Part shown: positions 21,367 through 63,678 of the stretch, piece by piece | How positions within the stretch are numbered: position 1 is the first letter of the stretch | Layout: every line of letters begins with the position of its first letter | NCBI RefSeq assembly: GCF_964355755.1 | Contig: NC_092674.1 | Coordinates: 19,177,001-19,241,000 of the forward strand | Direction: 5' to 3' | Length of the DNA: 64,000 nt | Source: Antedon mediterranea | Lineage: Eukaryota; Echinodermata; Crinoidea; Comatulida; Antedonidae | Made by a program: the position numbers and the translations under genes | Notes under the pieces: model-generated | The model's input: only the letters and a program-made list of their open reading frames with translations | What the model was told of the DNA's origin: nothing | The model's database searches: none

Positions 21367-24300
21367 TCACTTATTCCTTACAGTCTTTTTCCTAAGTCGA
21401 TTACCTTCACCAGTAAATGCTTCAAAATTATCAGTTTGATCCTGAAAAAAAAAAGGTAATAATTATTATTTATATTAAAAACCCCAATGTTACTACTGAT
21501 ACATAATAGCAATGAGCAATCAATAGGATTATTTAATGTTTGGGTAATTCAAGTGTGTTCAGACTCTTGTTATCCTTCAACTTACTTCATTTTGATCAGG
21601 GTTAGTTGTTGGTTTAGCTGTTCTTATAAATGTAATTGTTCCTTGTTTGTAATCATAGTTCGGAATTCCACTGTAACATAATTATTCACATATTAATATT
21701 TTTTTCTTCTAAAAACTGTTATATTGAACCACATTCACCAATTTGCTGATGTAGTCCTTACTGTATATTAGTTAATGCTCATATATTGGTGTGTGGTAAA
21801 TTGTTATAAACACTCGAGAGATAAACACTAAACTAAGTCAAATGATTTCCAACTATAAGGATCGCTTAAAATATCAGAGGTCTGACCCGAACATCATTAT
21901 TAACATAACTCACCAAGTTTTAAAATATTCAAAAAATAGAAGGGAATAAAGCTAGATTGAACAGGAAGATTGTATAGTAGTACTTTCTATAGGCTTGTAT
22001 TGTATACTGTGTATACATGCAAAATCTTATTACATATTCTTATTATATTTGTAGAGAGCAATACATAATTACCGTTTGTAGATGCGTGGCTGTAAAGAAA
22101 CTGGTTTTGAGTCTAAATTTTTAGTCTTGCCATCCAGTCTGTTACCAGATCCTTGAAATGCCATGAATTTACTCTCATCAATATAGTCGGTATCATCAAC
22201 TTGCATACTCTGTGTAGATATCAAAAAAGAAAAAATCGAAACATTTACAGAAAATGAATACTATTATACAAAATATCTGGCAAAAACATATCTTGAATGA
22301 AAATATTGATTATACACTTATGGAAACAGATCAATTTAAGACAAGTATAATATACAAAATTAAAATTAAAATTGTTAGGAATGGCCTTTAACAAATCACA
22401 CCTTACCTCCGGTTCTGGATCCTGTGGTTTTACTCGCTGTGGTTCAACATAGCCTACTGGTGCTGTAAAATCAACCTATGAAAAAAAAAGTTTACAAGCT
22501 GTGAGCCAAATCAGAAGATTTTTAGATATTTAAATGTTCAATAAATGTTAACATTATTCGTTTGTATTGCCTATCATGTGTGTGCTGGACAAAACATGTC
22601 TATAGGATTCTAGTCTAGTAATGTTTCTAGTGCAACCAGAAAATGATCTAAATAGCAATGGTCTCAATAGCAAAAGAGTTTCCCAAATTACTCTTAATTT
22701 TTTTCAGATAAAAATTATTTTACTGAAATATTGATGGTTGTACTTACACTCATATCACATTCTATAATAGACACTGCATCGGCTGGCTTTGTTTCCAAAA
22801 CTTTTAATTCATATATCTTATCATTGTATTTAATTGCAATCATATCTCCTCTTGTTAAACAAGCAAAACCTCGGAGTATATTTTCGAGTCTTTAAATGGG
22901 TTAAAGAAGTACAAAAATCAAGCTTTATGTATGTACATTTAAAAAAAAAAAAAAACAAATCAAACTAACTGTTTAATAACTACATTTTTGTTTGAAAAAA
23001 TTAAAATTAAAGCGATTACATAAACATTAGCAAAGCAAAAGGATACACTGCTTTTGGATTTGAAATATCTAAGAAATCAACCGACTGTGGTTGAAATTTG
23101 GAAAATGTTGCCACTGACAAAGATGTACTTTCCAACTGAAGTAAGTCTCCTTCTTGAAGTAGCAAGTTTTGCATCATCTGGAAAAAATAAAAACGTACCA
23201 AAGTAGTGTCATAAAATTCAAACCCAATTTGCCATGAATTTATTTTCTTGTTTTAAAATTTTACTGCTTGACTTAATTGTGCATCTATATATTGTGTAAT
23301 ATAGTGTTTGGGTTGTTGAGGTACTAATGAAGGACTCTGACTCGCTTGACTGTCGTAACACATATATTATTTATTCAGTATAATACTTCAGTACAATATA
23401 CAACTATAAGTATACATAAGGAACGCGGAGGATCAATGATGCTGTCGGTGAGGTGTGAAGTGTGTTAGTCTGCTTCTGGAGAAGTGGCTGTATGGTGTGT
23501 CTGGGCCCTTCTGAAACTTGGGGGTATATTGGCTCAGTTCATTTGCATAATGTCATTACATCATCTGTGAGGGTAACGATTGGTCCTAAGTTGATCCAGG
23601 GGTGTTTAAGTGGGAGTGATTAACGGTGTCATAAGGTATTTCTGTGATGGATGACACTGTCAAATCTGTACTTAAATAGTGTCAATCACTCCTGGTTTTA
23701 ACGATGGGAAAGTCACAAAATTAAGCTAAGTGTTTTCTTTAGGGATTCTATTATAAACTAAATGGTCATTAAAACATCTGGACAAACTCTCCTTCGGACT
23801 TTCTGGGTCAAGTTTGTGAACCTATTTAAATTCCGATACAAAGGTCAATTTCTTAAATATAAAAGTATATCTTTATATCACATCCCTCTGTTTCCCTTTT
23901 TTTTTTTAATCTATTTAACATATAAAAATGGTTATAATAGTGGCATGCAAAATTAAAGTTATATAAAAGAAAAAAACATTATTATACATATAAGCAAAAA
24001 TTGAGTTAGCCAAAACCATTGACTCTGAAGTGTAACCTTATCACTTTCACTCTCTCTCTTCTCTCTCTTAAAAAAATGAAATTAAAATTGAATTTGGTAT
24101 AAAAATTCCGGAATTTATATAAAATTTGAGGTTTGTCAGTTGGTCTGCTGGACGGATGTCGCAAAGGAATAATAAAACTCTTTTCAAGGAATCTAAAGTA
24201 AATGGCATCGTTTTGGTAATATGGAGAATTACGTTTTGTTCGCTTTGGTAAAGGATTATCTTCTTTATAAGGGCACATTCTGTGGACAGGGGCGTCATTT

Positions 24301-30300: not shown

Positions 30301-30524
30301 TGGTTTAATGTTTTTAAAGTACATTCAAAGCAAGGAATGACCTGGTTTAATGTTTTTAAAGTACATTCAAAGCAAGGAATGACCTGGTTTAATGTTTTTA
30401 AAGTACATTCAAAGCAAGGAATGACCTGGTTTAATGTTTTTAAAGTTATATGCATTATTTTTACAAAACATTAAAAATTGCAGGTAAAGTGTCTTATCAA
30501 TAGTTTAAACTTCTGCTTTACCAT
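21367..30524 (-). CDS. UFD1: UFD1, ubiquitin recognition factor of the p97-UFD1-NPL4 complex
   Basis: Ten minus-strand coding exons join in frame to 302 aa (human UFD1 is 307): 30,522-30,524 (ATG only), 29,299-29,410, 28,866-28,898, 27,503-27,624, 23,047-23,177, 22,748-22,889, 22,407-22,475, 22,073-22,209, 21,586-21,670, 21,367-21,441. All introns are GT-AG. The N-terminal double-psi barrel part (about 1-190) has [54 protein letters not shown] and [15 protein letters not shown]. The C-terminal part has two p97-binding SHP motifs, FQGSGNRL (about 222-229) and FTGEGNRL (about 287-294), and a basic tail. UFD1 binds ubiquitin chains and, with NPL4, delivers substrates to the p97 ATPase in cytosol, ER and nucleus. 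The start codon lies at the very end of its exon, whose acceptor at 30,562 implies a non-coding exon further upstream. One intron holds an LTR retrotransposon. Confidence 0.96.
23291..23294 (+). repeat. LTR element target duplication, left (ATTG)
   Basis: ATTG before the left LTR equals ATTG at 27,061-27,064 after the right LTR. Confidence 0.7.
23295..23882 (-). repeat. 3' LTR of the UFD1-intron retrotransposon
   Basis: Nearly identical to 26,474-27,060. On the minus strand it starts TGTGATATAAAG and ends TATATTACA. An AATAAA-type signal (CTGAATAAATAATATATG) near its end suits an R region. Directly upstream of it (minus strand; plus 23,883-23,907) is a polypurine tract, a run of A then GGGAAACAGAGGGA. 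Confidence 0.9.
25378..25710 (-). CDS. Unrecognised 110-aa frame inside the LTR element
   Basis: Sense-strand frame of the retrotransposon, starting [17 protein letters not shown] and ending in a basic, K-rich part. No zinc knuckle, no protease or RT motif. It could be a remnant of gag or chance. Listed because it is the longest sense frame in the interior of an otherwise young-looking element. Confidence 0.3.
   Translation of the reverse strand: MQSDTLTHPTKFEPLNVQPYIDCVENNMGLAAPFQMKEEQIKEQTNLIMTAPNDSSMTLNRGRFKAGHFQVLVSYSKPTSAKRNTDKTKNKNLMIANFGGILTDITIQIN
26474..27060 (-). repeat. 5' LTR of the UFD1-intron retrotransposon
   Basis: Near-identical partner of 23,295-23,882. The visible differences are two adjacent bases near the outer end (TATAGTG against TATAACG on the plus strand). 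Short identical open frames at 23,762 and 26,940 are LTR sequence and not genes. Confidence 0.9.
27585..27850 (-). repeat. 61-bp tandem repeat that copies a UFD1 splice acceptor
   Basis: Four near-perfect 61-bp units plus a partial one. The unit closest to the exon contains the real acceptor and the first 30 or so bases of the exon 27,503-27,624 (plus strand TGGGTACATTATGTTCATACGAG, then CTGTTGACAG). Each further unit repeats the acceptor and exon start. Use of an outer acceptor would add 61 bases and shift the frame. Confidence 0.9.
27967..28149. mobile_element. MITE-like inverted repeat in a UFD1 intron
   Basis: ACAGATATTGCC...GGTAAAATATAAG at the left is mirrored by CTTATATTTTACC...GGCGATATCTGT at the right, and the GGGAAATGATATT core is mirrored as well. 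No coding sequence. Confidence 0.65.
30233..30446 (+). repeat. 42-bp tandem repeat, five copies
   Basis: Five perfect or near-perfect units (AAAGTACATTCAAAGCAAGG, then AATGACCTGGTTTAATGTTTTT). The unit is a multiple of three and free of stops in one frame on each strand, so both strands show an open frame of repeated 14-aa units. It lies in the first coding intron of UFD1, about 75 bases past its donor. No sign of translation. Confidence 0.9.
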
Positions 30525-30561
30525 TCTGGTGGTTAAGTGTTTCTACTTCTCTTGATTGATT
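30522..30561 (-). other. UFD1: UFD1 first coding exon, ending exactly in ATG
   Basis: On the minus strand: acceptor TATTTTACAG at 30,562, 37 bases of leader, ATG, and donor GTAAAG. Joining this ATG to the next exon (TTTGGGTTTTCA) gives MFGFSFDN, which fits the start of UFD1 proteins (MFSFN in human). The acceptor means a non-coding exon should exist upstream. Confidence 0.75.
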
Positions 30562-30727
30562 CTGTAAAATATAAATAAAAGAAAGTGGTTATTTAACTGG
30601 CAGAGAGTTGGACCATGGACCTATATCCATGGTTGGACAATGTTACAAAGATAATTTATACGGTTAACTTAATAAAGTTATAAAGGTTATTAAACTAGAC
30701 GACAGTTGGATACGATATAACACGGTC

Positions 30728-32430
30728 GAACAATTTCCTATCACTCTCCATCACCAAGTCATACATATTTAGGAGTAGAGGAACAATTTCCTATCACTCT
30801 CCATCACCAAGTCATACATATTTAGGAGTAGAGGAACAATTTCCTATCACTCTCCATCACCAAGTCATACATATTTAGGAGTAGAGGAACAATTTCCTAT
30901 CACTCTCCATCACCAAGTCATACATATTTAGGAGTAGAGGAACAATTTCCTATCACTCTCCATCACCAAGTCATACATATTTAGGAGTAGAGGAACAATT
31001 TCCTATCACTCTCCATCACCAAGTCATACATATTTAGGAGTAGAGGAACAATTTCCTATCACTCTCCATCACCAAGTCATACATATTTAGGAGTAGAGGA
31101 ACAATTTCCTATCACTCTCCATCACCAAGTCATACATATTTAGGAGTAGAGGAACAATTTCCTATCACTCTCCATCACCAAGTCATACATATTTAGGAGT
31201 AGAGGAACAATTTCCTATCACTCTCCATCACCAAGTCATACATATTTAGGAGTAGAGGAACAATTTCCTATCACTCTCCATCACCAAGTCATACATATTT
31301 AGGAGTAGAGGAACAATTTCCTATCACTCTCCATCACCAAGTCATACATATTTAGGAGTAGAGGAACAATTTCCTATCACTCTCCATCACCAAGTCATAC
31401 ATATTTAGGAGTAGAGGAACAATTTCCTATCACTCTCCATCACCAAGTCATACATATTTAGGAGTAGAGGAACAATTTCCTATCACTCTCCATCACCAAG
31501 TCATACATATTTAGGAGTAGAGGAACAATTTCCTATCACTCTCCATCACCAAGTCATACATATTTAGGAGTAGAGGAACAATTTCCTATCACTCTCCATC
31601 ACCAAGTCATACATATTTAGGAGTAGAGGAACAATTTCCTATCACTCTCCATCACCAAGTCATACATATTTAGGAGTAGAGGAACAATTTCCTATCACTC
31701 TCCATCACCAAGTCATACATATTTAGGAGTAGAGGAACAATTTCCTATCACTCTCCATCACCAAGTCATACATATTTAGGAGTAGAGGAACAATTTCCTA
31801 TCACTCTCCATCACCAAGTCATACATATTTAGGAGTAGAGGAACAATTTCCTATCACTCTCCATCACCAAGTCATACATATTTAGGAGTAGAGGAACAAT
31901 TTCCTATCACTCTCCATCACCAAGTCATACATATTTAGGAGTAGAGGAACAATTTCCTATCACTCTCCATCACCAAGTCATACATATTTAGGAGTAGAGG
32001 AACAATTTCCTATCACTCTCCATCACCAAGTCATACCTATTTAGGAGTAGAGGAACAATTTCCTATCACTCTCCATCACCAAGTCATACATATTTAGGAG
32101 TAGAGGAACAATTTCCTATCACTCTCCATCACCAAGTCATACATATTTAGGAGTAGAGGAACAATTTCCTATCACTCTCCATCACCAAGTCATACATATT
32201 TAGGAGTAGAGGAACAATTTCCTATCACTCTCCATCACCAAGTCATACATATTTAGGAGTAGAGGAACAATTTCCTATCACTCTCCATCACCAAGTCATA
32301 CATATTTAGGAGTAGAGGAACAATTTCCTATCACTCTCCATCACCAAGTCATACATATTTAGGAGTAGAGGAACAATTTCCTATCACTCTCCATCACCAA
32401 GTCATACATATTTAGGAGTAGAGGAACAAT
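30728..32430 (+). repeat. 53-bp minisatellite, 32 copies
   Basis: Unit GAACAATTTCCTATCACTCT, then CCATCACCAAGTCATACATA, then TTTAGGAGTAGAG. There are 32 full units and a 7-base partial one. Almost every unit is identical; one substitution (TACCTATTT) is visible near 32,036. It lies just upstream of the UFD1 ATG exon. All six frames are interrupted. Confidence 0.97.
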
Positions 32431-33562
32431 GTCACCACAATTCTGATTAAAATTCAGTTAAAATGCTTACGCAGAACATACTTGTTCTCCATTCATATAC
32501 AAAGAAAGTAAATACCGATTCGATGGATGCAGCTGGATGGTAGTAAATGGGGCTATGGCGGTTTTTCTTTTTTTTTCGATATTTTTCTTTTAATTGGTCT
32601 CTAGTTGAGAGATTCTTTAGAGCTGTAGGTTATACTGTATTTTATAGGTTGACTATCTGTTTATATGTGTTGGCTAGATACATTTTCGCCGTTTCCCAAT
32701 TTAAAAACCAAATTTTTTTAAACTCTGTAATTGGTTCTGGCGATATATGTTACATACTGTAAGGGATGAATGTTTATTTAGGCCTAATTTATTTGTTTTC
32801 AATTTATTGTACAGGTTGCAATAAGTTTACTCTTTAAAAATTATTGTAAAAATGTACCCACAAGAGTACATTTCGTTTCAATTTGTTTATTTTTCCACTC
32901 ACTTATATATATAATTTGAACAAACGTGAGTATACATATATTAAATGTGGGTGGATGGAGGTCACAGTAAGTTCACTGAACTTTAAGTTGTGACCCCCGT
33001 AGTGATTTTAGTTACATACAACTTCTATATAATGTTCAATAAAACATTGATATGCAGTATAATGAATTACTGTTTTTTAACTTATGGTAGTGAATTAATA
33101 ATGTATGTAAATAAATAAAAAATTAAATATATGTACAAATTATGAAAAAACATAATAGTACATAAATTCTAACTAAAAGTTAGCTTAAAATATTTAAATA
33201 ATCCACTTTTAATTAAGTAATGTTTGTTTTATATTGGTCCATGTACCAAATAATAACATTTACAGTAGAACCGCTAAGTATAGTAACAATGCTACGGAGT
33301 AGACTAAAATATAAATATATAAAAGTGAAGGTACATAAAATAAAAAAATTAAATTATAGAGGTTAAGATAAACCAGGCAGTTATATAATATAATGATAAA
33401 AGGGATAATGATAACAATTAGAGTACAATATGAAATATAATTAAATATGGTATAATAACAAGTATAACGATACAATGTAGCGGAGATTATTGAATACCAG
33501 GGTGAAGGATTTAATGCCATGTATCACCACCAAATAAATAAGGATAAAAGATCGGCGAAAAA
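32431..33562. other. No recognisable gene
   Basis: AT-rich spacer between the minisatellite and a LINE tail. Open frames here are short and biased by T or A runs. It is part of the 9.4 kb between the UFD1 and CDC45 start codons. Confidence 0.4.
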
Positions 33563-33794
33563 TTATGTAGCATATTCTGACACCATTTTGTGTTTGAAAT
33601 TAGATTTAAAACTAGAAAAGGAAGATTTCTGTTGAGAGTGAAGTCCAAAGTTTGGGACCAAAATAATAAATAGAAGATCGTCGAGCCTTAACATTTAAAT
33701 TATCAAAGATATAATTGGTTACAGAGGTTCTGGTTTTATAGGAATCTAACTGTTTTGGCAGGCGTTTATCGCTTTGATGTTTAGTCCGTAACAC
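33563..33794 (-). pseudogene. LINE ORF C-terminal fragment
   Basis: Minus strand reads RLPKQLDSYKTRTS, then YYFGPKLWTSLSTEI, then, after a one-base shift, FKSNFKHKMVSEYAT and a stop. The GPKLWNSL-like box and a following FK..K stretch are typical of the very end of CR1/L2-type LINE proteins. Only this tail is present. Confidence 0.7.
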
Positions 33795-34041
33795 ACTACA
33801 TTTTATTGTAAGGAAAATCCCTGGATTGTGTCACGGTCACCAAACGTGCTGGAGAACAACAGGCCCATGAAGGTTTCTCGTCTCATCTTCTACCACCACA
33901 TACAAATTATCCGACCATTGACGTTTCATTATATTAGTTTAATTAGTATAATTATGATTATAAACAATCATATTTTTACAATAATGGTAATTTTAAAAAG
34001 GTCATCCCTCTCACCTGTAATAAAATAAATGAAATATATAA

Positions 34042-35172
34042 CTAGATTTAATTCGTCACTATGACGAATTTAATAGAGTATATGCATTGATTTAAATAAA
34101 GATAATAGATTTTTAAAAGATATATTGATTGATTGATTTTCTCAGAATCTTTAATTATTTATAATAATATGATAGGATCTTGTTTACGCAAATACAATAG
34201 CCGGTATCACAATCCCTCTGCGTATAATGTCATAAACCACATTTTTTACATAAAGACATAAAATACTTTTTATCTAGATTTCATTATAAATCATGTGTAT
34301 AATCTATACACTAAAAAATACAATTGAACAAACAATACGGATAATAAAAAAAATCTTATTTCGTTTCGTTTCCCAAGGTGAGACTCGAACTCGGTACCTT
34401 GAATGCTATAAACAGGAGCAAAGACCACCGAGCCATACACAACTGACTAAAAGTTATGGAAAGTTTCCTCTGTGTACTTACTATGCAGTAACCACTTTGG
34501 TGCAGATAGATTATTACATACCGCAATGAATTATAATGTTTTACTATGACATCTTTAAAAATTGAAAAAAATGATGCACTGTTAAACTATATACTTTTAA
34601 CTTTAATATATGAAGTTAATGTTAAGTTTGTTATTTCGGCCTAAGAAAATGTTATAATTTGTTTGATTGTTGAAATTCATTTTTAAAATTTAATATGCCA
34701 TTAATGATGACTTAATCAACTTTTGTTCTCTTAATTTCATAATAAATCATACGATACATACACTTCAAGAAAATGAAATAAAAAAAAAGATGTTTTAAAC
34801 GCTTAAAATTGCCTGAAACGTACTCTAATTTCATCGAAAATAAATTTTGACAATTTTGAACATTTTAAGGGCGCGTACACATGCGTTATACGCGCTACGC
34901 ACGTAATTGTATTGCCATATGATGAAATATGACCCGAAATTTATGAGTACCAAATTTTGTTTAAAAGTGATTCATGCTTGTGAAGATATGATTACAAACG
35001 TGATTTCGTTAAATCGTGCGTAGACCGCGTAATTTTTGATTGTGCACCGTGAAAACCTAACCACATCGATTCTTGGCAAGTAAGGAATATACTCTGAAAA
35101 ATTTACTTAGCTAGATGAAACTGATGCCAAGATATTGGTAAGGAAAGGATAAATAAATAAATAAAGATCCTG
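34042..35172 (-). mobile_element. Helitron-like copy C, uninterrupted
   Basis: On the minus strand it begins TCAGGATCTTTATTTATTT and ends with a short hairpin (AATTCGTC, loop, GACGAATT), six bases and CTAG. A TC start, a 3' hairpin and a CTAG end are the hallmarks of Helitrons. No Rep/helicase frame, so it is non-autonomous. It shows the uninterrupted form of the copy in CDC45 intron 3 and so serves as an empty-site reference. A 43-bp flank (AATAAATAAATAAAGATCCTGACAGAATC...) is directly repeated at about 35,151-35,193 and 35,222-35,264. Confidence 0.75.
34376..34440 (-). other. tRNA-like module inside Helitron copy C
   Basis: Minus strand: TATGGCTCGGTGGTC (A-box-like), then about 30 bases, then CCGAGTTCGAGTCTCACC (B-box-like). 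It does not form a complete tRNA gene. The partner in copy B is at 42,263-42,331. Likely an old tRNA-derived SINE captured by the Helitron family. Confidence 0.5.
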
Positions 35173-38375: not shown

Positions 38376-38379
38376 TAAT

Positions 38380-48900: not shown

Positions 48901-51900
48901 CTATACTTGTCTCTGATTTGCTAAGCTTTTACAAAATCGAATTTGTCAATAATGGAGGAAAACTGATATCAACTCATATTCGTCCCAAAATCTTACAAAG
49001 AAAATTCAATAAAAATTTAAAGATGAAATCAAAGTAAAACCTGCAGACAGACGAAGAGGTAACTTCATTTATAGATCACTTCTTCTAGGAGAAGAAGCCA
49101 CTGCTCGACTTTATGATAATTCTGAACAATATGTACAGGATAATAAAATAAAATGGGCTGCTCTTCATCTTAGATCTATAACCATGCAGCTCCCACAGAC
49201 AAAGACCTGCTACAGTTCAAAACTTAAAAGAGTGTGCTGCCAAGATACCATCACAGTTAAAATTATTCTTTAGGAGTCTTCTTGGTGGCATCGACCAAAA
49301 TGCCAATGATGCAAACAAAGACAAGTTTGATAGAAAGGTTATTTCCATTGCATCTGATGCCATCTATAATGTATCTCGTGGAACTGTGAAACCATGGAAA
49401 CACACTGTCGTTGGTTTATGTTTTACATCTCTGACAGGATCAAAACTGGCTATGCAAATTTTGACATTGTATTAGTAGTGAAAGCAAAGGCCTTGAGACT
49501 GAGTTTGCCTATTCAGTTCAAGATGATGAACGCGACGCCCCAGATGGTATCCGGCTTGACCCAACCTTGGCAACTGCATGTGTATGGGAGAATAATGATA
49601 CAAATGTAGAAACACTTGATGGTAAAGAAACTCTACACGCTACAGTTGGACATACATATCAGAATATATCGCATGACGACCAACTGCTCAATAGGAATAC
49701 TATTGGATTTCGGGATGGTAGAAACAGGCGGAAATTTGTTGGAGTTGAAAGAGAAATACCACCTTTTAGGATAGGTATAAATAAAGCTTTGTTTATAAGT
49801 TCCAATGCCACATCAACTAAAAATGTTAGAGAATGTAGTACAATCACTGACAAACCAATGGAATACCAAATACCACTGAAGGCATTGGATATGTATTGGT
49901 TTTGGAAACTGAATGATGGAGATACACCCCTACATGCCGGATTCATGAGCAAGTATATCAATAATCATTTACCAGTTCAGTGCATTTGCTACAGGGATCC
50001 TATATCAAAATCCCCAACAAACAATGATGTGGTTAGAGAGAGAAAATGATCCAGACTATGGCTATTGCCAAGGAAACTGGCCAAGACTATGCAGACAAGA
50101 CTATGCAGTTGTGACATATGATTTGGCAGTAGCATTAAAAGCTTACTCCATACAAACAATACAATCCCCCCTATTTGATAAGCTTTTAGTATTACAGGGC
50201 AATTTTCACACAGAGTTGGCGTTCTACGGAGCAGTTGGAACGTACATTAACGACAGCGGTATCGAATATATTCTCCAAGAAGCAGATATCTTGGCTGAGG
50301 GGTCAATGATGGGTTTCATCAAAGGAAAGTTTTACAACAGGTGCACTAGAATTCACCAATTGCTTGCCAATGTCTTGGAGCAAAAGTTGTATAAACGCTT
50401 TCTTCAAGAAATAAATGCAGAAGATCATCACACATTTCAAGAAATAATGTCAACTGCACCTTTGGACCCATCATTGATTGAAGAACATATATCGGATCCT
50501 GTTGTAATTAATCACCTGCAGAAGTACGAGAATTACTTCCAGTCAGTGCTTACTGGAAATATAGGTTCAACAGCACAATTCTGGGCTATTTACATTTTTC
50601 TTATTAATCGACTCCATAGAGAACTTCAGAGATGTGTGAAAACAAATGATGTCACTGGCTACATTAATGTATTTCCAACCATATTATCTGTTTACTTTGC
50701 CCTGAACCAACCTAACTACGCCAGATGGGGAACTCTATTCATACAGAAACTGAAAAACGTTGACCTAAAGTACTGGAAAAATGAGCATTTTCCATCAGAC
50801 GTACAAATAAGCACTACAGTAGATCAGCTGTTGACCTTTCCTTAGAACAGACGGTCAATCGTGATTCTTCTTCAAGTATGAGAGGGATTGTTGCCTTTCC
50901 TAATTCAGAAAATGCAATGCACCAGTGGTCATTGACTATGAGTCAACGAGCCATGGCAGTCACGGAGCTGAGAACATTTGCTGGTCTTGAATTGGGGGAA
51001 ATGCAACAGCTCAATGCCGTCCATCAAGAATAAAAAAGGACACATTGACAGTGAAACGGAAGAAACAGAGATTGAAGAATCAAGTGATTCTTATGGCGAT
51101 GCATGGAGTGAAGAGGAATATATGGATTAATTTAAATAATTTGTGCAGAAAAGTCATAGCTTATTAAATAAGACTGTTTTTTGTTGTAACTAATGAAAAC
51201 TACTGTAGATAGAATAAGGTACTACATAAAGTATCATATGCTAAAATGTCGGGTGTTTGATATTTGATGTAGTTCTCATTTTAGTCATTCATGCTGTTTT
51301 TTAGTGTACTTAATTGCTCCATATATTTTGTTTTATAAGATTAGGTTTTGAGTTTATATAGTTCATGTTTTTTTTTTGAGGGGGGGGGGGGGGGGTGGGT
51401 GGGTGGATGTTTAATGGGTGTCTGGCGGACACAACCCACCACTTTAAATGTCTAGTAATGGTCATTTATTATACTAGGGATCATGCTGAACATTTTACAG
51501 CATGTTTTAAAAGGTTAGCTTTTCAGCTGATCTAGCTCATTTTTGGGGAGTGGGGGTGTTTGACGGGTCTGGCGGGCACAATACACCACTGAAAATGTCT
51601 GGCAATGGTCATTCATAATAGTTATGAGTACATTGAACATTCTCCCACCAGTTTTAGAGGGTTAACTTTTAAGCTGATCTAGCTCATTTTTGGCCCTCCA
51701 GAAATGGGGGTCTGGCAGGCACCCCCACCACTAAAATCGTCTGGCAATGTCCATTCATTTTATTTCACTCTATGTCAAACAATTTGCAAAATATTTCACG
51801 GGGTTAACTTTTCAGCTGATCTAGCTCAATTTTTTGGGGGTGGGGTGTTTGACGGGGTCTGGCGGGCACAATCCACCACTGAAAATGTCTGGCAATGGTC

Positions 51901-54900
51901 ATTCATGATAGTTATGAGTTTATTGAAGATTTTCCCACCAGTTTCAGAGGGTTAACTTTTAAGCTGATCTAGCTCATTTTTGGCCCCCCAGAAATGGGGG
52001 TCTGGCAGGCACCCCCCACCACTAAAATCGTCTGGCGATATTCATTCATTATATTTCACTCTATGTCAAACAATTTGCAAAATATTTCATGGGGTTAACT
52101 TTTCAGCTGATCTAGCTCAATTTTTGGGGGGTTGGGTGTTTGACGGGGTCTGGCGGGCACAATCCACCACTGAAAATGTCTGGCAATGGTCATTCATGAT
52201 AATTATGAGTTTATTGAACATTTTCCCACCAGTTTCAGAGGGTTAACTTTTAAGCTGATCTAGCTCATTTTTGACCCCCCAGAAATAGGGGTCTGGCAGG
52301 CACCCCCCACCACTAAAATCGTCTGGCAATGGCCATTCCTTATATTTCACTCTATGTCAAACAATTTGCAAAATATTTCATGGGGTTAACTTTTCAGCTG
52401 ATCTAGCTCATTTTTTTTACCCTTTACAATGTCCCTCCTAGCCACACCCACCAAAAGAAACGCGCCAGACTGTCATTTCCATACATTGATATGTACGTAG
52501 ATAATTGCCACATGCATAGAAATTGGTTAACTTTCCAGCTAGGTTGACCCCTCTGGGCTCCTGCTCTAGTACTGTATAACCTATAATTCCTCGTAGTGAC
52601 GAATTATATCTAGTTGTAAATTATTACTGTATATATAGATATGTTTGTTTGTTTCTCTAGGTTAAACTGTTACTTGACTCTACAGAACAATTGACAATAC
52701 CATCTTATGAAGATATATTTAATGATGAAGAGGTAATTTTAGGATAACTGTAGTTATAGTTATACTTAAATGATTTATTGAAGGCATTAACAGGCAGAAT
52801 TGGAATTTTGTCATCATTGTCTGTTCATTGATCGCGTTGAAATCTAAGGCCTGTATTCATGAATACAGGCCTAAGTTGTTGCGGTTGTCCATGTATTGCA
52901 AGAATGTCCATGGTAATAATCTTTCATTAAATACTCTACATAGATGAGCAGTTATCTATCACTTTAATTGCAGCCTACAATAGTTTGTGTAGCTGTGACA
53001 TTTGTGTAGCGCTGTCTATAACTTTACAGTTACAATGTTAATCAGAACATACTGAAAAAAAACAACTACTGTATTATTTATTTTATTTTATTTCTTTATT
53101 CTGACATAAAATCATAGGATAAAAACACAATAAAGTACTGAGACGGCAAACTTATTTCCATTGTGGTCCTAAACACATACGATTTCTATTGTGGCTTGTA
53201 AGATACATATATATCTACTTAATAATTGTTGTAATTAAACTATTTCCTTTGTATATACATATTACAGAGTGATTCGGATGATTCTGGTAACGAAAGTGAA
53301 AGCTCCCAACCTGACAAAAGGAGGAGACTTGATGAGGTAACTACAATATCTATGCTATTTAAGCCCTGAACATACATACACATAATAATTATTATATATT
53401 ACTGTATCCCCAGACTATGAGTAGGAAAATAATAATACAAATATGTTGTTTAATCTAAATAGGAAAGTATAGTGAGGAAGTTGGAAAAGAAACGAGCTAG
53501 AAGATTATGGGAAGAAAGCCGACAAAAAATTATTTTTCAGTATGAAGAATTTTCATTTTATTCTACTTCAGTAAGTATGCACATTATTACTCTCAATTTG
53601 GTGTGTATATATTTGCAGTATTGCAATAATATAATCACCAATGATTTATTTCCACAATGCTTTTTTTGTGTCTTGTGTACTGTATGTTATGTTTGGAATC
53701 AATTCTTATTGGTTATCTGCACTTGGCGGATAACCCCTTGTTATTTTCAGGATCTTTTTTTTTTCTATATTCTTCTTCTTACTTTCCGCGAATTTTGTTC
53801 GCAGCGTATCTCTAATTCTGGCCAACATAAGATTGTATAACTTTTTCATAAGATTTACCTTTATTTGTAGATGTGCAAGAAACTTTTTTTATGATTTTCG
53901 AGTCGCGCAGCGTAAGTTACGCGCAATTTTATGAATTTCAATGATTGATCATAGATTAAAAACCAAAAGTCAGTTTGTATTGAAACTTGGTGAAAATTTA
54001 AGTCATATCATGCGCAAACTGTCTATGAATTAAAAATGGCATGTTTCACAGAATGTTAAAATTTCAAAATGTGAAAAATCAATTTCTAATCAACTTTCTA
54101 TGCGTTTCATGTCATTTAGAGCATTAAAAAAATTCCCACGCTTCCGCATTTTTTTTACGTGCGTGTGTGATTTTTGTTTTTTCATCCTTTTCTAGTAATT
54201 TTATCAACTTTTCAAACAATTTCGACTTAAAATCACGTCATACGAGCACGTCGAATTGGACAATTCGTGCGCGTTTTGATGAAAAAGTTCAAACATTTGT
54301 GAAAGTTATACCTTTTTTTAAACAGTCATAGATTCTAAACTACCATAGGTGGTTTACTTTTTCAAAATTACATATTCTGGAAGTAGATGAGTTGTAGATA
54401 TCGAATCATGCATCGATATGGCTAACCGGACATTGTGACGTCATCATATGGCCACTCGAATATAAAATATAGGATTTTTGTCTCTTTTGTCATAGCTCAT
54501 CACATTTGGTAGAGCGCATCTCCACTTATTCATATTCCATTTTCCTCCATTTTTGTATATCGTCTAGATCAATCAATTATCTTTTGCATTTATTATGTCA
54601 TCATGTGCAAAAGCGTCAATAACTTTGATCACTTTTTTTCACCTATTCTGCACTGTATGTAGTACGTATACAGTATATGGTGTATACTGTATATATTAGA
54701 CGTGACACCAAATAGAAAGCGCACTAACATTTTTTTCAATGGCCTAATTGTTTTTCTGTGCGCAATATTCTAACGTATGACGTGCACATGGCTTTTGGGC
54801 TGCGGATAACCTAACTCGTCCGTAGCGACGAGTTCAAATCTAGTTCTTATTTGAATTTGTGACATGCACATATTCACAGACTTCACTTCAATTTTTTTGA

Positions 54901-57900
54901 AAGACCATGAGAAAAACCAAAATCTAAAAAAGACCACATTCCATTTATCATAAGTGCATATGGGAATGCGTGATGTAAATCTTCACTTTGACAATTTGAA
55001 AAAGAAATTACAATAAAAATGCGAAATAGTATGAACATTTCATATGTTTTCAGAAATATTAAACCAGCCCAAATATTTCTGTTTTAAGATTAACTGTCTT
55101 GGTGTTTTTGTTTTTAGGCTGCTTATGTAATATATCAACTGGCTTGGAAGCTGTCAAAGGATTCTAATGACCTTCTCTGGTATGTTGTCATTCATATAAG
55201 GCCAAAAAAAAAAAATAGTTTGTTTGCTGTCATCCGCCGCCCCTAATTTCGCAAAAAATTTGGGGCGGAGATAAGAAAAAGTTTTTTTTTTACGTTGAGG
55301 GCGCTTTAAAAAAAAAATTTTTTATGATTTTTTTTAAAATCGAGTGTGCGAGGATGAAATAATAAAAATAATAACGTAGCGTATACTTCGGTGTATAATC
55401 GCACTTTTGACACGCAAATTTAACCTCTAAATTAATTATACACCGAACATAAATGCCTCAACACACAGATATTGCCACCTCGCTGGCTAGGCCTGGGCCT
55501 ATTAGTATTACTAGGCCTAGCTAAAGTCTAAAGAGTAGCCTAGCCTAGCTACAGTGTACTAGCGTAACGTAGCGTAACAGCAACCTGCTAGTTTTCAAGG
55601 CATTCTAGCGTGATTTTGTACTAAATATGATGACAAGATTTGTTCATTATGGAGCTGTTTTAGGCGCTCCGATAAAATTTCATTTGTAAACGTTTACGAT
55701 ATTGGAATAGTATTAGGCCTATAGTTATACGCAGGATCGTCGTACCCCCAGCGCGAGCAAGCCCTTCTTGGCAACCACATTGTGTACACAGTATTCGACT
55801 AGTATATTCTCCAGTTGATTATAGTATAGACCTCTAGCGTACACACTTCTAGGATACATAGATACTAATCGAATACGATTGTCCGTGAAAACGTGCGCCT
55901 CTCGATAAAAGGATCGAGCGAGGCTAGCCCACACACACACGTGCGGTCATGCACTCGATGTTGCGGGTGCGAAACTCATGAATAACAAGTTAGAAAGAAC
56001 TGACGGAATGGGGGACTTCCCTTCTTGTTGAGGCTGGGCGCGGCCGTCTTATACATCGACGATATAAAAAATACCGATATTTTACTCTCAGTTAGGGGGT
56101 GCGTCTTATACACAGGTGCGACTTATACACCGAAATAATTATACGGTACACTAACTTCTAAAATATTTAATTAGGCCTGCTAACAACGACCTACTGTGTA
56201 GTAGGGCTAGCCTAGGCTAGTTTAGACACGGGGCCTATGGCGCCCAAAACAGAATTAAAGTGTGAAACAAATTATGAATAGATGTTTGAGCTCGTTGTTT
56301 TATTCAGTGTGTTTTGTTACTCTCAAATTTGCGTACAATTAACAGAGAAATTAACTAACTAATTAATTAATTAACTTTTTTCCACCCGCCCCCCTACCAA
56401 AAAAAAAAAACTTGACAGCAAACAAACAATTTTTTTTTTTAGGCCTAATATTGTTCTGAACATTGAGTACAGTTGAATTCAGAGTTTTGGAAAGAAGTAC
56501 CTGATGCTTGTTACTATACACTTAATAAAAATTATACTTTCTAATTCAATGACAATGACAAAACAAAAAAATATTAAAAGGGCATGCATACACAAATGTA
56601 CATTTAACAATGAAGCAATAAATCACAAAATAAATATATCTTTGGGCACATGTTTACCTAAAGCAAGGACCATCCTAGTTTAACACATTGACTGGCAACA
56701 CCACCACCCTCTGTGTCAATTTCTTACAAGCCTAGGAGTTTTCTCCAAAAAAAACCACCTACATAATTAATTAATTCTGACATAGGCAAGCACAATGCAA
56801 AAACTTCGGTACAAATCTCCGCCTTTAGATGTGCCGCGAAACGTAGATTTTATAACATTAGTTTTCAGTTCGACGCTAATGTTCCATATTTCTATCTTAG
56901 GAAGATATTATAAAGAGTTTTTTAACAAAATTTATGATTTCAACAGTAGATTTTCAACTCAATTTCAATTCTTCGCGGTCAAAGTAATTTCCGGGTTTAC
57001 AATGAGTTCACCTTGCAACAACCTGGTTTCAACTATTTTCTCTCTTTTATACACAAGGGAGCAGTTAAAATAATAGATTTGACCCAAAAGGTGACTGGAA
57101 ACAGGCACTTTTCATCAATCAATACAGTGTCCCTTTGGAAGACGGAAGAAAAAAACAGATAGTAGGACTGGAGCTTAAGTTGGCCATTAGTCATAGCCTT
57201 TTTAGTTTTTTGTTTATTTTAACGGACCGCGCGTGTGTGAAAGTACAGTAGTTAAAAAATAAAAATTATACTGAAAATTAATAAAGATCAAATTAAATAT
57301 ACGCCATAAAGAATCGGAATATATTATGGGGAATAGTAATATAACATTACATAGGGAGATTTGATGATAAGACATTTTGTTTAAAATCGAGTGAAATCCC
57401 GATGGCTGAGTTTTATTGAGTAAGCTGGCAGGAATAACTGTAGGCTATCTGTGTCCACTTTTCATATCTATTAGAGGATTTCATGTGATTATATGTTACC
57501 ATATTATTAAAACTAAAAAATTCAACATATATCCCTCGAATAACCACCTCCCTCAAATGAACTCCGCCTCCCCAAAGGGCCCTACCAAACAATAAACACT
57601 ATACTGTAAAATGTTATTAATCATCTAAAACACTGTGAAATAGAGTAGTTTAGTTTTACGATTGTCAAGCATTTTTAATAATGGTAACCGACAAAATATG
57701 TACAAGGAGAACATTATCATTCCGAGAACCATCGTCTACACTTCCTAGAGGGGGAGCGAGCGAAGCGAGCTCACCCTCTAGTATTTCAAATTTGTGTTTA
57801 CTAAAAAATATGAAAATCTGTCTATCTGTAAATATAAATATTTTATTATTGAATACAACTATATCATCTAAAAAAACAATAAGTTAGTTAACCTTTTTTG

Positions 57901-60900
57901 TACAATCTTTATATTCACAGGTGGTCGATAATTGGTCTTACAGATCAGCTGCTGTCAAAGAAGATTGACAGGTATGTTCCAATCCCATCAATTACAATAA
58001 CAACAATAAATAGTGGATACATTTGTACACAGTTTATTACGTGCTGTAATTATTTTACTTTATTTTGATAATACATACTGATGTCTAAAAAAACCTAATT
58101 TTTATTTTTTTGTAAATGGTGATTTGCAACTTACTTTAGAAACAAGTAGTAATTTTACATTTAATAAAAGAAATGCATGGTTACACCAATATTAATGTTT
58201 TTAGGCATTAACAAAATAATGATTTCACTTGTAAAAAGACAAAATAAATGTATTTTAAAAATCTATGGCATATTTAAAAACAACATTATAAACCAAAAAG
58301 TTTTGAAGAACTATATATCTTACATACTGATTTACTGAACATTTCGCAAAAATACATTTTATAAGGCCCACCAACTCCATAGAAAAAAGTGTTTTGTTTA
58401 CTACTTTATTCAAGGTTTTAAAAAATATATAATTACAGAGAGAAGTATTTCTTAGATGCATCTGAACTAAATCGTCACGTTTCACGTCACAACCGTCTTG
58501 GTCAGGAAGAGGATGCAACTCAACAGTCGGTGAATGCCATGAAAATTACTTTCAATCCAGAGTATCCTTTGAAGTTTGAATCTCAGACTTTAGTATGTAC
58601 TTCTTAAAACTACAGGTCATTTCATCCAAAGATTTGATTGGCTGAGTTCACAAATATCATCAAACTAAAACTAGTTTTTCAAAAGGTGCATGGCCTAACT
58701 AATTTTCTGTAGGTTACCAAAGTCTGTTAATTCAGTGTCTAGACTGACAAACTTTGGAAGATATTGTGGTTGCCAAGTTCAAATTGTTCTCACATTTACC
58801 AACTAAAGTTTACTTTTAAACTAGGTTGTGCACCTCGGTTTGCTTGCAACAATCAAATAAGATTGTTCATTTGATCCTGCTGCATGCTTAAGAATTAGAG
58901 TTCCAAAAGAGTTCTAATGTCACAGACAAACAAACAGTTTGGTAAAGTTTTTTACTATAGACTAGGCTTTACACACAATATGTGGTATATGAGGTACTGA
59001 TCTTTAGAATTTATCAAAGAACCATTAATACGTTTATCAATCTTGTTGTTTAGTAATCGGTTGTGAAATGTTTCCAGCTATTACAATAATTTTCCCTAAA
59101 ATTGTACTACAATAGACTTCAATTAGCACTGTATCGTCATTGGTCACTTTTTGATAGCATTTGCCATTCATCTTACACAGCCTGCAAGTAAGTGGATTTG
59201 TCAATTTTTAATTAGGTAGTCATGTCAGATGATTGCTTGGATGACATAACGTTTGTGTAATTTGACAACATACTTTCTCTGTTATTTAAAAAGGGCTGTT
59301 GCACTCTTGTAATAATTTTTAGGAGTCTTTCAATTTTCGACAACTTAAATAGGTCATATGTTATTGAATGTCATGTCAATTCAACCATTGTGCTTATGCA
59401 GAAAAGTTGGGATGTGACATGACCTAGGTCATTGGTCACCACAAATCAAAACCTTTACGGTTAGCTGTTCAAAATCTATCATTTAACAATTTCCTATTGT
59501 ATTTTTCTACAGTCTACGGTTATGGACAGCAAGAGGTTTTAAGAAACTGCATGAGTTTTTAGCAGATATGGGGATGCCTCTAACACAGTGTAAACAGAAA
59601 TTTACAGCCATGGATATAGCATACAGGGAAACATTCTGTGATTCACTGCAAAACTCTGGAAAGAAATATGGGTAAGCAAAAAAATCATTGTCAACATAAT
59701 TAGGGTATGTTAAGACAGCATTAAGATGGCGTTATGTAAGTGGCGTACATAGTTTTGTGTCTGAACTAGGCCGCGGATTAGCATTAGGGAACTGCCAGTG
59801 GCATTAATAACCCTAGCAGGGAGAGGGTAGATTTAATAATGCTAAACTTTAATGCGTTTGTGATGAATGTATGCATGTTCTATCTGCTTAGAAATAATGA
59901 TTAAATGTTGATCATTGTGTCTAAACGCCTTGACTTTTAACGCCATGGACTACCACACGCCTTGCATTAAATAACGTTGTGAGTCTGAACATACCCTTAA
60001 TTTACAATAAAATTACAAAATTTATGATTCATTACAATATGTGACGAATTTTCAGGAAGAGTGTAATGAATACAATTAGCCAATCACAGCTTTATTTTGA
60101 CAATTTTACTCAGACTTGTTTTGTTAATTGCTTTTTTTTTATTTGGTTCATAATTTGCTTATCTTGGTAAATTAATTTTCCACCTTAAGAATGAATCTTG
60201 GTACTGTACCTATCAGTATACCACAATGTGTAAATATGTTTATTCCTGAAGATAAACAAATAAAGGAATGAATATTGAATCATAATGGCTTGCCTCACTT
60301 TTTTAGGAGTTTGTTTTTTATTATCATTACTAAGATATGTTGTTCATATTTTGTGGCGGTATAGATACTGTATGTGTGGCATTTACATTCTTACTGTTCT
60401 TTCTTATGTCTGTTAACAATTTAATTATTTGGTTTTGACTAGGCTAGATCAGATTACTGTTCCTTCATTCTATGCACAGTTTGGCTATAAAAACAAGGTT
60501 AGTATATATTTTATTTATAATTTTTGCAAATAAAATTCTAACATCACATAATTCGGTCAGTTTAGAAATTTAGTAAAAAAAATGTTTCTTCTGAACAATT
60601 GTCTATTTAGTACATACATAATGTCTTGCATGTGATGTTGTTTTGTTTTTGTAGTTTTGTGCTTTTGATGCAGTCCATGCTGCCTCTGCCTTGCTAGAAT
60701 CAATAGTAAGTTTATCTATTTTTGAACTGTAATTATTAAATTTAAAACTACTGTTCTGCTGTTCCACTATACGTTGGAGATGTGAAATGTGACAAAGGCC
60801 CAGTTGGCCTAATAAATAAAACAATGTGTAGGTTTCACTGTACAAGTTTAAAAAAAAAATGTTTTGTTTTTAGGAGAAGGACAAGGTGGGAGATGCAAAC

Positions 60901-63678
60901 TTTTTAGAAGCACTTGATGCATTGTCAAGGTAATGAATATCAATACCAAATATAGCAATACATTGCTATTTTATGCTTGATTGGCTTTTGTGATCTATTT
61001 ACCAATAGTCGCTGATCAAAGAACATTGTAAAGTAAATTTTATTCTTTGTTAAACAACTTATTATTGAAATTAAAATTATTATTATGTATATCCAAGCAT
61101 GGAGCTATCTAATTTTATAGCTCTATGATCCAAGATAGTTAATTTGTATTTTGATAAATGTATTTTTTTTTTAAATCCAGGGTTCATTTAGACAAACTTG
61201 AATGTGGTTTGGAGATCAGTAAGCGTCAACACAAGGCAATTGTAAGCCAGATCAGAACACTGTTAGACATGAATCATGTGGTTTCTGCTGGACCATTCCT
61301 GTATGCCTACATACAAGAAGGCACGCTTGATGTCAAGTTCTTCTCTAAGGCAAACTGTCTTGCTCTGCTTGCTAGATTCACGCTTGAGGCATTTGTAAAA
61401 ATGGTAGGATTTTGTTTTTTAGTCATGATTAAATAATTAAATTCTATCAGAATCAGAATAAGCAGAAAACACCAAAAATAATTTCTTTAGAAATTCAGCA
61501 AAAAATTAAATTAATAGAATATTGTTTATTTTGAAAATGTTATGCATAGGAAAAAATAGTTTCAAATGTAAAAATTATAGAAATATAAAAATCATCCCAA
61601 AAAACAGTTTATTATAACCCAATTTACAACAAACATTTTTCAATTCCTATCTAATAAAATGACTAGTAATTGTAAATTTAACCATAACAAATATATATAG
61701 AAATTACCTAGTACAAGTATAATTTTTTTTTAGTCTAAAAGTAAAAAAGTGAAGAATCTGCCACTGGTAATGGTTGCCCCTTTAAATTTTGAGCAAGGAA
61801 CATCTCTAGTTGTTGGTGTACCGCCACTCATGGAATTAGAGAATTCACCTAGAAGGTATGGTTGTATTTGATATTTTAATTTGAATGAAAACTGGTCTGA
61901 AAGTATTCAATTTGTAGATGATTTTATTGTGACTGACGTTTGATGTAATAACAGACTCTAGCTTTGCATCAGAAAGCTAAACAAAAATATAGAAAGTTGT
62001 ATAATAGTTTAATTATCATCATGTTGGCCATTGTGCTAGTTTAGTGGTTAAAAATAAAGGTATTTATTCTGGTCCTCAAGCTTAACATGAAACTGAGAAA
62101 ATTGGGTTAATAGGCCCACAACATACCTAGCAGCCAGTAGTGCAGCACCTACCAGCTGCAGCACACATGGAGACAATCCTCTACAATGTCTATATACAAC
62201 TTTACATACTCTGAAATTGTCAACCTGTCTGTAGATAGATAAGATTTCTGTTAAAATTTTTACATTAGTTTGTTTGGGCGTGCATTTGAACAAACAGCTG
62301 AGAAGACTGGTTCTAGAGTTCTGCATGACAGCTTTGATCCTTCAAGTAAGAAACATTTCATTGTATCCATTTCATTTTTACTAACCTATTTTATATTCTA
62401 TGATTACCAATATCTAAGATATCTAAATATATCAGATATTATATAACACCTAAATAAATTCCTGTCATTTGATTGGACGATTGTTTAACATCGCGTGCAA
62501 TAGTATGCACTATTACACGGTCGTCTAATAATACTTTTTTCTGTGTACAAAAAAAATCGTCGCAAAGATTGAATGTTATGACTGGTTTTGCGATGGAAGT
62601 ACATTTTGTTGCGGATAACCATTGTAATATTGTCAGGATCTTTTTATTTCATCTTTATTCTTCTTTCTTTCCACGATTTTTGTGCACAGTCTATCTCAAA
62701 AACCTGTATGCATAACCTTTTGTAACTTTACCAGAATTTAAACCTTTATCTGAAGATGTCGTAAGGTTCACTAACGCCAGATTTGCCGCAGCGTAACATA
62801 CGTGTTATTTTATGAAATTCTAAAATAAATTCAGAATGATATATCATTTTTTATTGAAACTTAATAAAATCATAATTTATAAAAGGGGTCAACTTTGTAT
62901 GGAATTTTAAATATGTTCTTGATAAATAAATTTTCTTTCACATGAGTTACAACAATTTTCATTTTTATTATTTCATCATATAAAAAAAATTAGAATAACA
63001 TGAGTTACTTAATTTAATCTATTCAGTAAATTTCAATATTTTATAGCTCATCAAAATGATAAGTTACCCACAGTATTGGAACTTGTTATGGAAGCTGTTG
63101 AATTGTAGATATGAATTCATATAAAAATGTTGTCTATCGGATGTCATGACGTCATGTCATGGCTGGTTGAATTCAAATAGTCGGATGTTCACCTCTTTCG
63201 TAAACATTGGTCGCGTTTAAAAGAGTGTGCATCTTGCTTTTACATGCCTGAAATTCTTCAATCTTTTATGAATGTAATTATTTAGATAATTATCTTCTAA
63301 AAATGCTTCATTTTTATGACGTCATCATGTTAAAAATTGGAATAAAAGATGGGTCTCGCAATTTCTTCTATGCTACACTGTATATTATTATATACAGTGT
63401 ATTCTGTCAAAATACTGTATACTGTATGACACAGAGACACAATTTATCACTGTAAACATTTATTTCATGTCATAGGATGTCATATTTTAACGTATGTGCA
63501 TGTTGCGTTTGAGCGGATAACCCAAATTCGTCAAAGTGACAAGTTCAAATCTATTTTTTTAAATTATTGAAAAATGTATTTATTAACAATCTTGTTTTAA
63601 ATTGTTTTGCTAGTATTTGCACTGAAAACTGAAGATAGAAGCAAATTCTTTGATGCACTAGTATCACTACTCTCATGA
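39904..63678 (+). CDS. CDC45: CDC45, replicative helicase (CMG) subunit
   Basis: Eighteen coding exons join in frame to 568 aa (human 566): 39,904-39,954; 40,092-40,244; 41,102-41,239; 52,661-52,732; 53,268-53,336; 53,463-53,570; 55,118-55,179; 57,921-57,971; 58,439-58,561; 59,116-59,187; 59,513-59,671; 60,443-60,497; 60,655-60,705; 60,874-60,929; 61,181-61,403; 61,734-61,855; 62,269-62,345; 63,614-63,678. Every intron is GT-AG with matching phase. The start [13 protein letters not shown] aligns with human CDC45. The N-terminal RecJ/DHH-like fold has [11 protein letters not shown] and [11 protein letters not shown]. An acidic segment ([13 protein letters not shown]) and a basic KRRRL follow, then [34 protein letters not shown] and the conserved end [15 protein letters not shown]45 binds MCM2-7 and GINS to form the CMG helicase. 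Intron 3 (11.4 kb) is nearly all transposon. Confidence 0.97.
42263..42331 (+). other. tRNA-like module inside Helitron copy B
   Basis: TATGGCTCGGTGGTCTGTG resembles an A box, and GGTACCGAGATCGGGTAC a decayed B box. It matches the better-kept partner at 34,376-34,440. Confidence 0.45.
43131..46466. mobile_element. Giant foldback of 3.3 kb with subterminal unit arrays
   Basis: The outer ends TAGGCTAGTCAATCTAGC and GCTAGATTGACTAGCC are inverted, as are the inner AACAAATTGCAAACAGAGATTTTT stretches. Each arm has four or five units of about 340 bp: TATGCAAATTA, a TATCTCGAAAAC block, TATTTGCTCTAATGA.ACATTTTA, CCGGAA, GACCCTTGACCC, then TGTCTGTAGAGACTTTGTTTTG. The arms meet near 44,600-44,700. No gene, only shadow frames. 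Confidence 0.8.
45219..45320. repeat. Small insert within the right foldback arm
   Basis: Between ATTGAGAAATAATAATAATAAT and CGAAGGCGTGATTTTGGG the arm is interrupted by about 100 bases (TCCTGGATTTATATAGCGCC, then TGTAACCTCTAAGCGCTGTACA). The left arm has no equivalent. The word TATATAGCGCCTAATG...AAGCGCTGTACA is a common short tandem or SINE-like sequence in marine invertebrates (from memory). Confidence 0.45.
47014..52566. mobile_element. TA-flanked DNA transposon, 5.6 kb, long TIRs
   Basis: Ends GA.CAGGAGCCCAGAGGGGTCAACC and its inverse GGTTGACCCCTCTGGGCTCCTG, flanked by TA (47,012-47,013 and 52,567-52,568). TIRs are about 1 kb or more, and each contains alternating units of about 135 bp (GAGCTAGATCAGCTGAAAAGTTAACC, then GCCAGACGATTTTAGTGGTGG, then GCCAGACATTTTCAGTGGTGG). 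A decayed gene lies between (48,386-51,130). The empty site is preserved in Helitron copy C, near 34,080 (TGCATATACTC). Confidence 0.85.
48386..51130 (+). pseudogene. Decayed gene of the TA-flanked transposon, family not assigned
   Basis: Pieces in order: a cysteine/histidine-rich start ([12 protein letters not shown], then [12 protein letters not shown], 48,386-48,586), a lysine-rich piece (48,605-48,811), and a badly broken stretch to about 49,560. Then come two good frames, 49,567-50,049 ([12 protein letters not shown], then [14 protein letters not shown], then [11 protein letters not shown]) and 50,024-50,845 ([18 protein letters not shown], then [18 protein letters not shown], then [11 protein letters not shown]). 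They overlap by 26 bases in different frames, so one frameshift would join them. A third part after 50,846 ([11 protein letters not shown], then [13 protein letters not shown]) continues in another frame. The pattern (NYARW, then EQTVNRD) is familiar from uncharacterised repeated proteins of invertebrates. Its position inside TIRs makes it the likely former transposase. Confidence 0.6.
53747..54843 (+). mobile_element. Helitron-like copy D, in CDC45 intron 6
   Basis: Starts TCAGGATCTTTTTTT and ends with a perfect hairpin (ACTCGTC, CGTAGC, GACGAGT), six bases and CTAG at 54,840-54,843. A GCGGATAACC word stands both just before the start and just before the 3' hairpin, as in copy E. Length 1.1 kb, no coding sequence. 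Confidence 0.75.
55218..56428. mobile_element. MITE-like element in CDC45 intron 7, with a nested one
   Basis: GTTTGTTTGCTGTCA and its inverse TGACAGCAAACAAAC mark the ends, followed inward by T/A homopolymers and GGGGCGG / CCCGCCCCCC. Inside, CGGTGTATAATCGCAC (55,389) and GTGCGACTTATACACCG (to 56,132) form a second inverted pair, and GTGCGTCTTATACACAG lies next to it. TAGGCCTA words occur within. No coding sequence. Confidence 0.65.
57745..57785 (+). repeat. Strong hairpin ending in CTAGT, intron 7 of CDC45
   Basis: CTAGAGGGGGAGCGAGCG and AAGCGAGCTCACCCTCTAG pair nearly end to end. The CTAGT end after a GC hairpin resembles a Helitron 3' terminus, but no matching start was identified. Confidence 0.5.
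59703..59996. mobile_element. MITE, 294 bp, TTA duplication
   Basis: Ends GGGTATGTTAAGACA and its inverse (GAGTCTGAACATACCC), flanked by TTA (59,700-59,702 and 59,997-59,999). A TWA duplication again suggests PIF/Harbinger. In CDC45 intron 11. Confidence 0.7.
62435..62530 (+). repeat. Dispersed repeat, partner of 20,755-20,880
   Basis: TATATAACACCTAAATAAATTCC, then TGTCATTTGATTGGACGA, then GCGTGCAATAGTATGCAC, as at 20,755-20,880 inverted. Confidence 0.65.
62633..63554 (+). mobile_element. Helitron-like copy E, last CDC45 intron
   Basis: Starts TCAGGATCTTTTTATTTC and ends with a decayed hairpin (AATTCGTCAAAGTGAC) and CTAT in place of CTAG. A GCGGATAACC word stands before both ends, as in copy D. 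No coding sequence. Confidence 0.7.

Follow-up and report, generated by a model that had tools for sequence, protein, structure and literature searches.

Described gene pairs and the Antedon locus

In humans, UFD1L and CDC45L are described as a bidirectional promoter pair of 22q11.2; according to two methods a single CpG island covers both start sites, a third giving separate islands, and UFD1L is expressed in 71 of 73 tissues, CDC45L in 11 of the 73 (PMC2887419). TRMT2A–RANBP1 is given as another bidirectional pair of that region (PMC6554986), and PDI–RhoGDI as a deeply conserved microsyntenic gene pair of animals (PMC5722932). Bidirectional promoter pairs are defined by start sites within 1,000 bp of each other (PMC2423431), and are said in one survey to be conserved only in vertebrates, with co-regulation not being the selective force (PMC3403606). 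No report of the UFD1–CDC45 pair in an invertebrate appeared among the open-access literature matches listed. A shared promoter of the two genes was reportedly the subject of a mouse and human study by Kunte and colleagues in 2001.

The window analysed here is a stretch of 64,000 nucleotides of the crinoid Antedon mediterranea (C5:19,177,001–19,241,000; the genome comprises 354 Mb in 18 contigs), without a single N. Positions given without a chromosome are those of the window. It carries the same two genes, both essential cell-cycle genes, in the same divergent orientation as in human, UFD1 on the minus strand and CDC45 on the plus strand, with their 5' ends facing in the exon models and their splice-site-exact assembly. 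In contrast to the human pair, 9,380 bp with repeats lie between the start codons (30525..39904), and four other 22q11.2 genes are on other chromosomes. As in PDI–RhoGDI, unrelated genes have probably long been adjacent, whereas UFD1–CDC45 is arranged head to head and joins a replication gene to a ubiquitin-pathway gene. Given the published human pair and the same pair here, shared descent is much the most economical explanation, and Antedon mediterranea very probably inherited the two genes side by side from an ancestor shared with humans. An ancient linkage had been proposed in a first-pass annotation of this DNA. For human versus one animal it is supported, because two genes are very unlikely to end up as neighbours in the same orientation by chance; the comparison, resting on one genome, is a single data point, and the label ‘22q11.2’ overstates it, since the four tested genes lie elsewhere.

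The UFD1 and CDC45 genes

Gene models were built by exon searches with human protein sequences, followed by splice-site-exact assembly. The UFD1 coding region (21367..30524, minus strand) has 10 coding exons and encodes 302 aa. Exon 1 contributes the ATG only (30524–30522), exons 2 to 5 lie at 29410–29299, 28898–28866, 27624–27503 and 23177–23047, and exons 6 to 10 at 22889–22748, 22475–22407, 22209–22073, 21670–21586 and 21441–21367, ending in TGA (21369–21367). The CDC45 coding region (39905..63678, plus strand) has 18 coding exons and encodes 568 aa, with its ATG at 39905 and a stop codon ending at 63678. Exons 1 to 6 are at 39905–39955, 40092–40244, 41102–41239, 52661–52732, 53268–53336 and 53463–53570, exons 7 to 12 at 55118–55179, 57921–57971, 58439–58561, 59116–59187, 59513–59671 and 60443–60497, and exons 13 to 18 at 60655–60705, 60874–60929, 61181–61403, 61734–61855, 62269–62345 and 63614–63678. 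All 26 coding introns (9 in UFD1, 17 in CDC45) have a GT donor and an AG acceptor. Exon by exon, the models bear out what had been annotated: both genes are complete, with intact frames, they stand head to head on opposite strands, and the outer coordinates proposed earlier, 21367 and 63678, are the exact ends of the two stop codons.

Identity to the human sequence used as query is 62.8% for UFD1 and 54.0% for CDC45. Independently of these queries, a PDB search placed UFD1 on 9yrc_H (E 1.5e-119; query residues 10–297 on 16–303) and CDC45 on 8q6o_P (E 6.2e-211; residues 1–568 on 1–567). For comparison, the percent figures in Table 1 of PMC4487986, taken here as identity, are 56 for fly and 87 for zebrafish UFD1, and 39 and 74 for the respective CDC45 proteins. 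The Antedon values lie between those of fly and zebrafish, in keeping with an invertebrate. In genome-wide Pfam searches, which score candidates only and may miss exons, UFD1_N1 has one match, the UFD1 exon at 27.5 kb (E 6.7e-15). The CDC45 family has six; five are in the window (four over the cut-off) and one, sub-threshold, is on C1 (E 2.6e-4). UFD1, which carries the UFD1_N1 domain and resembles animal UFD1 over its full length, can be taken as a single-copy orthologue. The same may be said of CDC45, with its open frame, full-length similarity and above-cut-off matches confined to the window.

Both genes contain repeats. In UFD1, the boundary between exon 4 and the preceding intron has been copied by a 61-bp tandem repeat (27594–27862), four copies of which share the acceptor sequence and the first codons of the exon, while only the last (27624) continues into the real exon. 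Use of an upstream copy as acceptor would shift the UFD1 frame, because a length of 61 bp is not divisible by 3. Intron 4 of the same gene holds two 588-bp direct repeats, 99.66% identical, at 23295–23882 and 26473–27060 with about 2.6 kb between them, which look like a young LTR-element-like insertion. In CDC45 intron 3, an element at 47012–52568 has two arms in inverted orientation, each about 980 bp long, 90% identical and built of 143/291-bp tandem units; it encloses two overlapping ORFs (49465–50845), which are without Pfam match.

The interval between the start codons

The earlier statement that no other gene lies between UFD1 and CDC45 agrees with a scan of 30525..39904, in which no host gene was found: all 21 stop-to-stop ORFs of at least 60 aa were searched and none exceeded a Pfam cut-off, though shorter exons would escape a scan of this kind. 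The sole weak match, at E 0.006 and with 17.4 bits where 27 are required, falls in repeat sequence. A gene hidden in the interval was rejected on this count of 0/21 ORFs of at least 60 aa.

Much of the interval is repetitive. On the UFD1 side it is lengthened by a 53-bp minisatellite (30728..32430; 32.1 copies, 99% matches). Diverged repeats with further copies elsewhere in the window occupy 34033–35181, and nearer to CDC45 there is an inverted-repeat element (37224..38823) with arms of about 80 bp, which contains a nested element with perfect 19-bp inverted ends (37326–38376) and a fold-back (38488–38698). Between these lies an island, 35850..36270, which has only itself as a match in the genome, by a search that passes over very common words, and which is a candidate shared promoter region. 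CpG content has no peak there and shows no clear CpG island.

Predicted first exons

The start codons of both genes are preceded by strong splice acceptors. The UFD1 start-codon exon is 40 nt long (30522..30561, minus strand), with the acceptor ...ATTTTACAG/AATC at 30561 and the donor ATG/GTAAAG; that of CDC45 (39883..39955, plus strand) has the acceptor TTTTTTTATAG/TCATC at 39883, with the ATG at 39905. A weight matrix derived from the 26 coding acceptors, a training set that excludes both of these, gives them scores of 12.8 (30561) and 13.3 (39883). A score of at least 12.8 is reached by 9 of the 26 training acceptors, by 13 of 6,452 sites in the whole window, by 1/360 minus-strand AGs in 32431–39880, and by none of the 416 plus-strand AGs there, whose maximum is 10.7. 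Such acceptors imply that UFD1 and CDC45 probably have upstream untranslated exons. If these are spliced from further out, both start sites would lie inside the interval, and each gene probably begins with one or more untranslated exons there.

Two possible donors for such exons flank the single-copy island. For UFD1 it is CAG/GTATCG on the minus strand (35907..35909, last exonic base 35907), which scores 7.4 compared with a median of 8.7 for known donors and is outscored by five other candidates on that strand. For CDC45 it is GAG/GTAGGC on the plus strand (36291..36293, last exonic base 36293), scoring 7.5, with three plus-strand candidates above it.

E2F and CCAAT motifs

Consensus forms of E2F and NF-Y sites were used for the motif search. 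The only WTTSSCGCSAAW site in 32431–39904 is ATTCCCGCGAAA (36118..36129, plus strand), and 53 bp away is a CCAAT box of the form RRCCAATSR (AGCCAATCA; 36065..36073, plus strand). A second RRCCAATSR match in the interval is at 39850 (minus strand). Two weak E2F-like 8-mers, TTTGGCGC, occur on the minus strand at 35400–35407 and 35471–35478.

The chance of such matches was estimated from 2,000 first-order Markov simulations of 32431–39904, for motifs picked post hoc. At least one WTTSSCGCSAAW 12-mer arises with a probability of 0.0195 (0.02–0.03 overall, post hoc). For the 10-mer TTSSCGCSAA the corresponding values, likewise post hoc, are 0.0475 by simulation and 0.063 at the control rate; the 10-mer lies within 100 bp of a CCAAT motif in 0.1% of simulations, again a post hoc figure. 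By chance alone a CCAAT motif should turn up within the interval (P 0.53), and for any such E2F-like 8-mer P is 0.445; neither the CCAAT box alone nor the single 8-mers were retained as evidence.

Across the genome, the 12-mer has 678 + 637 strand matches, versus 154 + 149 for its reversed control. The 10-mer occurs within 6 kb upstream in four of the five MCM loci, these being named on a Pfam MCM_N match alone, one of which holds a stop; locus L020 is without it. In the control, made up of the window outside the interval and six 10-kb flanking pieces, there is one site in 114,657 bases, giving a Poisson P of 1.6e-4 for the MCM_N loci. This rarity set against the MCM_N loci indicates that the site type marks replication genes in this genome. 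The CCAAT part is uncalibrated, because none of the four MCM_N loci that carry the E2F 10-mer has RRCCAATSR within 100 bp of it. Motif support for a promoter at 36.1 kb is modest and post hoc.

Other 22q11.2 genes

MRPL40 was located on C8 by genome search (PDB mL40, E 1.8e-20), HIRA at C3:35.58 Mb (PDB HIRA, E 4.2e-9), TANGO2 at C3:35.32 Mb with another copy on C8, and RANBP1 at C3:37.02 Mb, as one RanBP1 domain spread over exons. The best single-domain PDB match of RANBP1 is a Ran-specific GTPase-activating protein (E 2.6e-16), single RanBP2 domains reaching 1.9e-14; whole RanBP2 chains top its ranking because they hold four copies of the domain. A RanBP1-type array at C5:8.7 Mb looks like RANBP2. 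All four tested 22q11.2 genes (MRPL40, HIRA, TANGO2 and RANBP1) are thus off C5, the chromosome of the pair, and a whole 22q11.2 block kept around the pair was rejected, 4/4 being on C3 or C8. The likening of this locus to human 22q11.2 in the first-pass annotation was too broad, with three of the genes on C3, MRPL40 on C8 and the pair on C5; the conserved unit is the UFD1–CDC45 pair and not the human region.

Several 22q11.2 genes fall within 1.7 Mb on C3. Near RANBP1, one gene combines a C-type lectin domain with a weak VWC-type match, a domain order that we take to resemble DGCR2, another 22q11.2 gene. This DGCR2-like gene, a MOZART2 gene and RANBP1 stand together at about 37.012–37.027 Mb, with HIRA and TANGO2 1.4–1.7 Mb off, and the group is possibly a remnant of a 22q11.2-type gene cluster, on another chromosome than UFD1–CDC45. 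TRMT2A–RANBP1 is likewise a divergent 22q11.2 pair, and its arrangement was not seen here, where the divergent neighbour of RANBP1 is the MOZART2 gene; no TRMT2A-like exon was noticed in the approximately 14 kb upstream of RANBP1, in ORF lists gone through by eye and a short motif scan.

Origin and retention of the pair

On balance, the explanation that fits best as a whole is an ancestral divergent pair with a central start region, kept as a unit. UFD1 and CDC45 would have been divergent in the common ancestor and retained as a two-gene unit, each being transcribed outward from a central region at about 35.4–36.3 kb that is flanked on both sides by untranslated first exons. The 5' introns would since have been lengthened by transposons and the minisatellite, leaving the start codons 9.4 kb apart. 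In S phase, CDC45 would be driven by E2F together with a CCAAT-box factor; UFD1, which is broadly expressed, would use the same open chromatin. A break inside the interval would then strip one gene of its promoter, so that splitting of the pair would be selected against. For the central region as a shared promoter, considered on its own, the case is evenly poised. Regulatory constraint as the cause of retention falls just short of that.

A shared or co-regulated promoter had been suggested as what kept the genes together. It is plausible in view of the predicted untranslated first exons and the E2F and CCAAT sites in the single-copy island, but the very different expression breadths of the human genes speak against tight co-regulation having preserved the pair. 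The same difference, start codons set 9,380 bp apart by an interval rich in repeats, and the published survey in which co-regulation is not a selective force on bidirectional pairs (PMC3403606) are all in keeping with a pair that is ancestral and held by inertia only, its genes not co-regulated and having their own promoters near their own first exons. We regard this as an appreciable possibility, well below an even chance. Four other 22q11.2 genes are on different chromosomes from the pair, so regional inertia alone does not explain it, and the strong acceptors at both start-codon exons would place the starts further out in the interval.

It is improbable that the pair was kept because its products act together, matched expression being selected since p97-UFD1-NPL4 unloads the CDC45-containing CMG. 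This had been put forward as making functional sense of the neighbourhood, and it is true that Ufd1-Npl4 recruits Cdc48 to ubiquitylated CMG, but the ubiquitylated subunit is described as Mcm7 (PMC5382235) and not Cdc45. UFD1 has many other roles, and in human expression UFD1L is near-ubiquitous where CDC45L is narrow. The story of an unloader beside a helicase subunit is weakly supported.

Independent joining of the two genes in this lineage and in vertebrates is very improbable, the chance of a given divergent neighbour being about 2.5e-5 (an estimate that assumes 20,000 genes). The 32-copy minisatellite and the transposon copies of the interval would offer an opportunity for separate loci to be misassembled into one between 30 and 40 kb, but this is the least probable reading of all, as the window has no N and a false join that recreates the human order would itself be improbable.

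The retained divergent unit can be taken further. UFD1–CDC45 might be a regulatory unit of at least deuterostome age, in which one E2F-responsive core fires CDC45, the helicase activator, and UFD1, the adaptor of the helicase unloader, in opposite directions, and which has moved from chromosome to chromosome as a cassette that cannot be split, amid rearrangement of the remaining 22q11.2 neighbourhood. In this full form the proposal is speculative and rather unlikely. If true, it would contradict the vertebrate-only conservation of bidirectional pairs stated in PMC3403606. Were the pair found across phyla, it would stand as an exception to the reshuffling of bidirectional linkages that has been described between invertebrates and vertebrates, and would provide a natural experiment on divergent pairs that stay unbroken amid broken surroundings. 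It would also bear on the reading of 22q11.2 deletions, as both genes would share control DNA.

Other elements and gene families

Beyond UFD1, a retroelement at 7970–12423 of the window has two long reading frames, one with a zinc knuckle (281 aa) and one for an endonuclease/reverse transcriptase (1,163 aa). On the other side, 18–25 kb beyond CDC45 (C5, about 19.258–19.266 Mb), both strands carry long ORFs, five in all (509, 432, 300, 266 and 222 aa), none of which reaches a Pfam cut-off; a large DNA virus or element that has integrated there is a possible source. Sialyltransferases (GT29) have 150 exon matches genome-wide, many in tandem clusters at places that include C7:20.77–20.89 Mb and C9:6.93–7.21 Mb. 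Expansion of GT29 is typical of deuterostomes, and the many GT29 and few innexin matches are a hint of an invertebrate deuterostome; COX1 had no match in the genome. Innexins have two matches in the genome, and echinoderms and lancelets are described as having few of them (PMC8769644).
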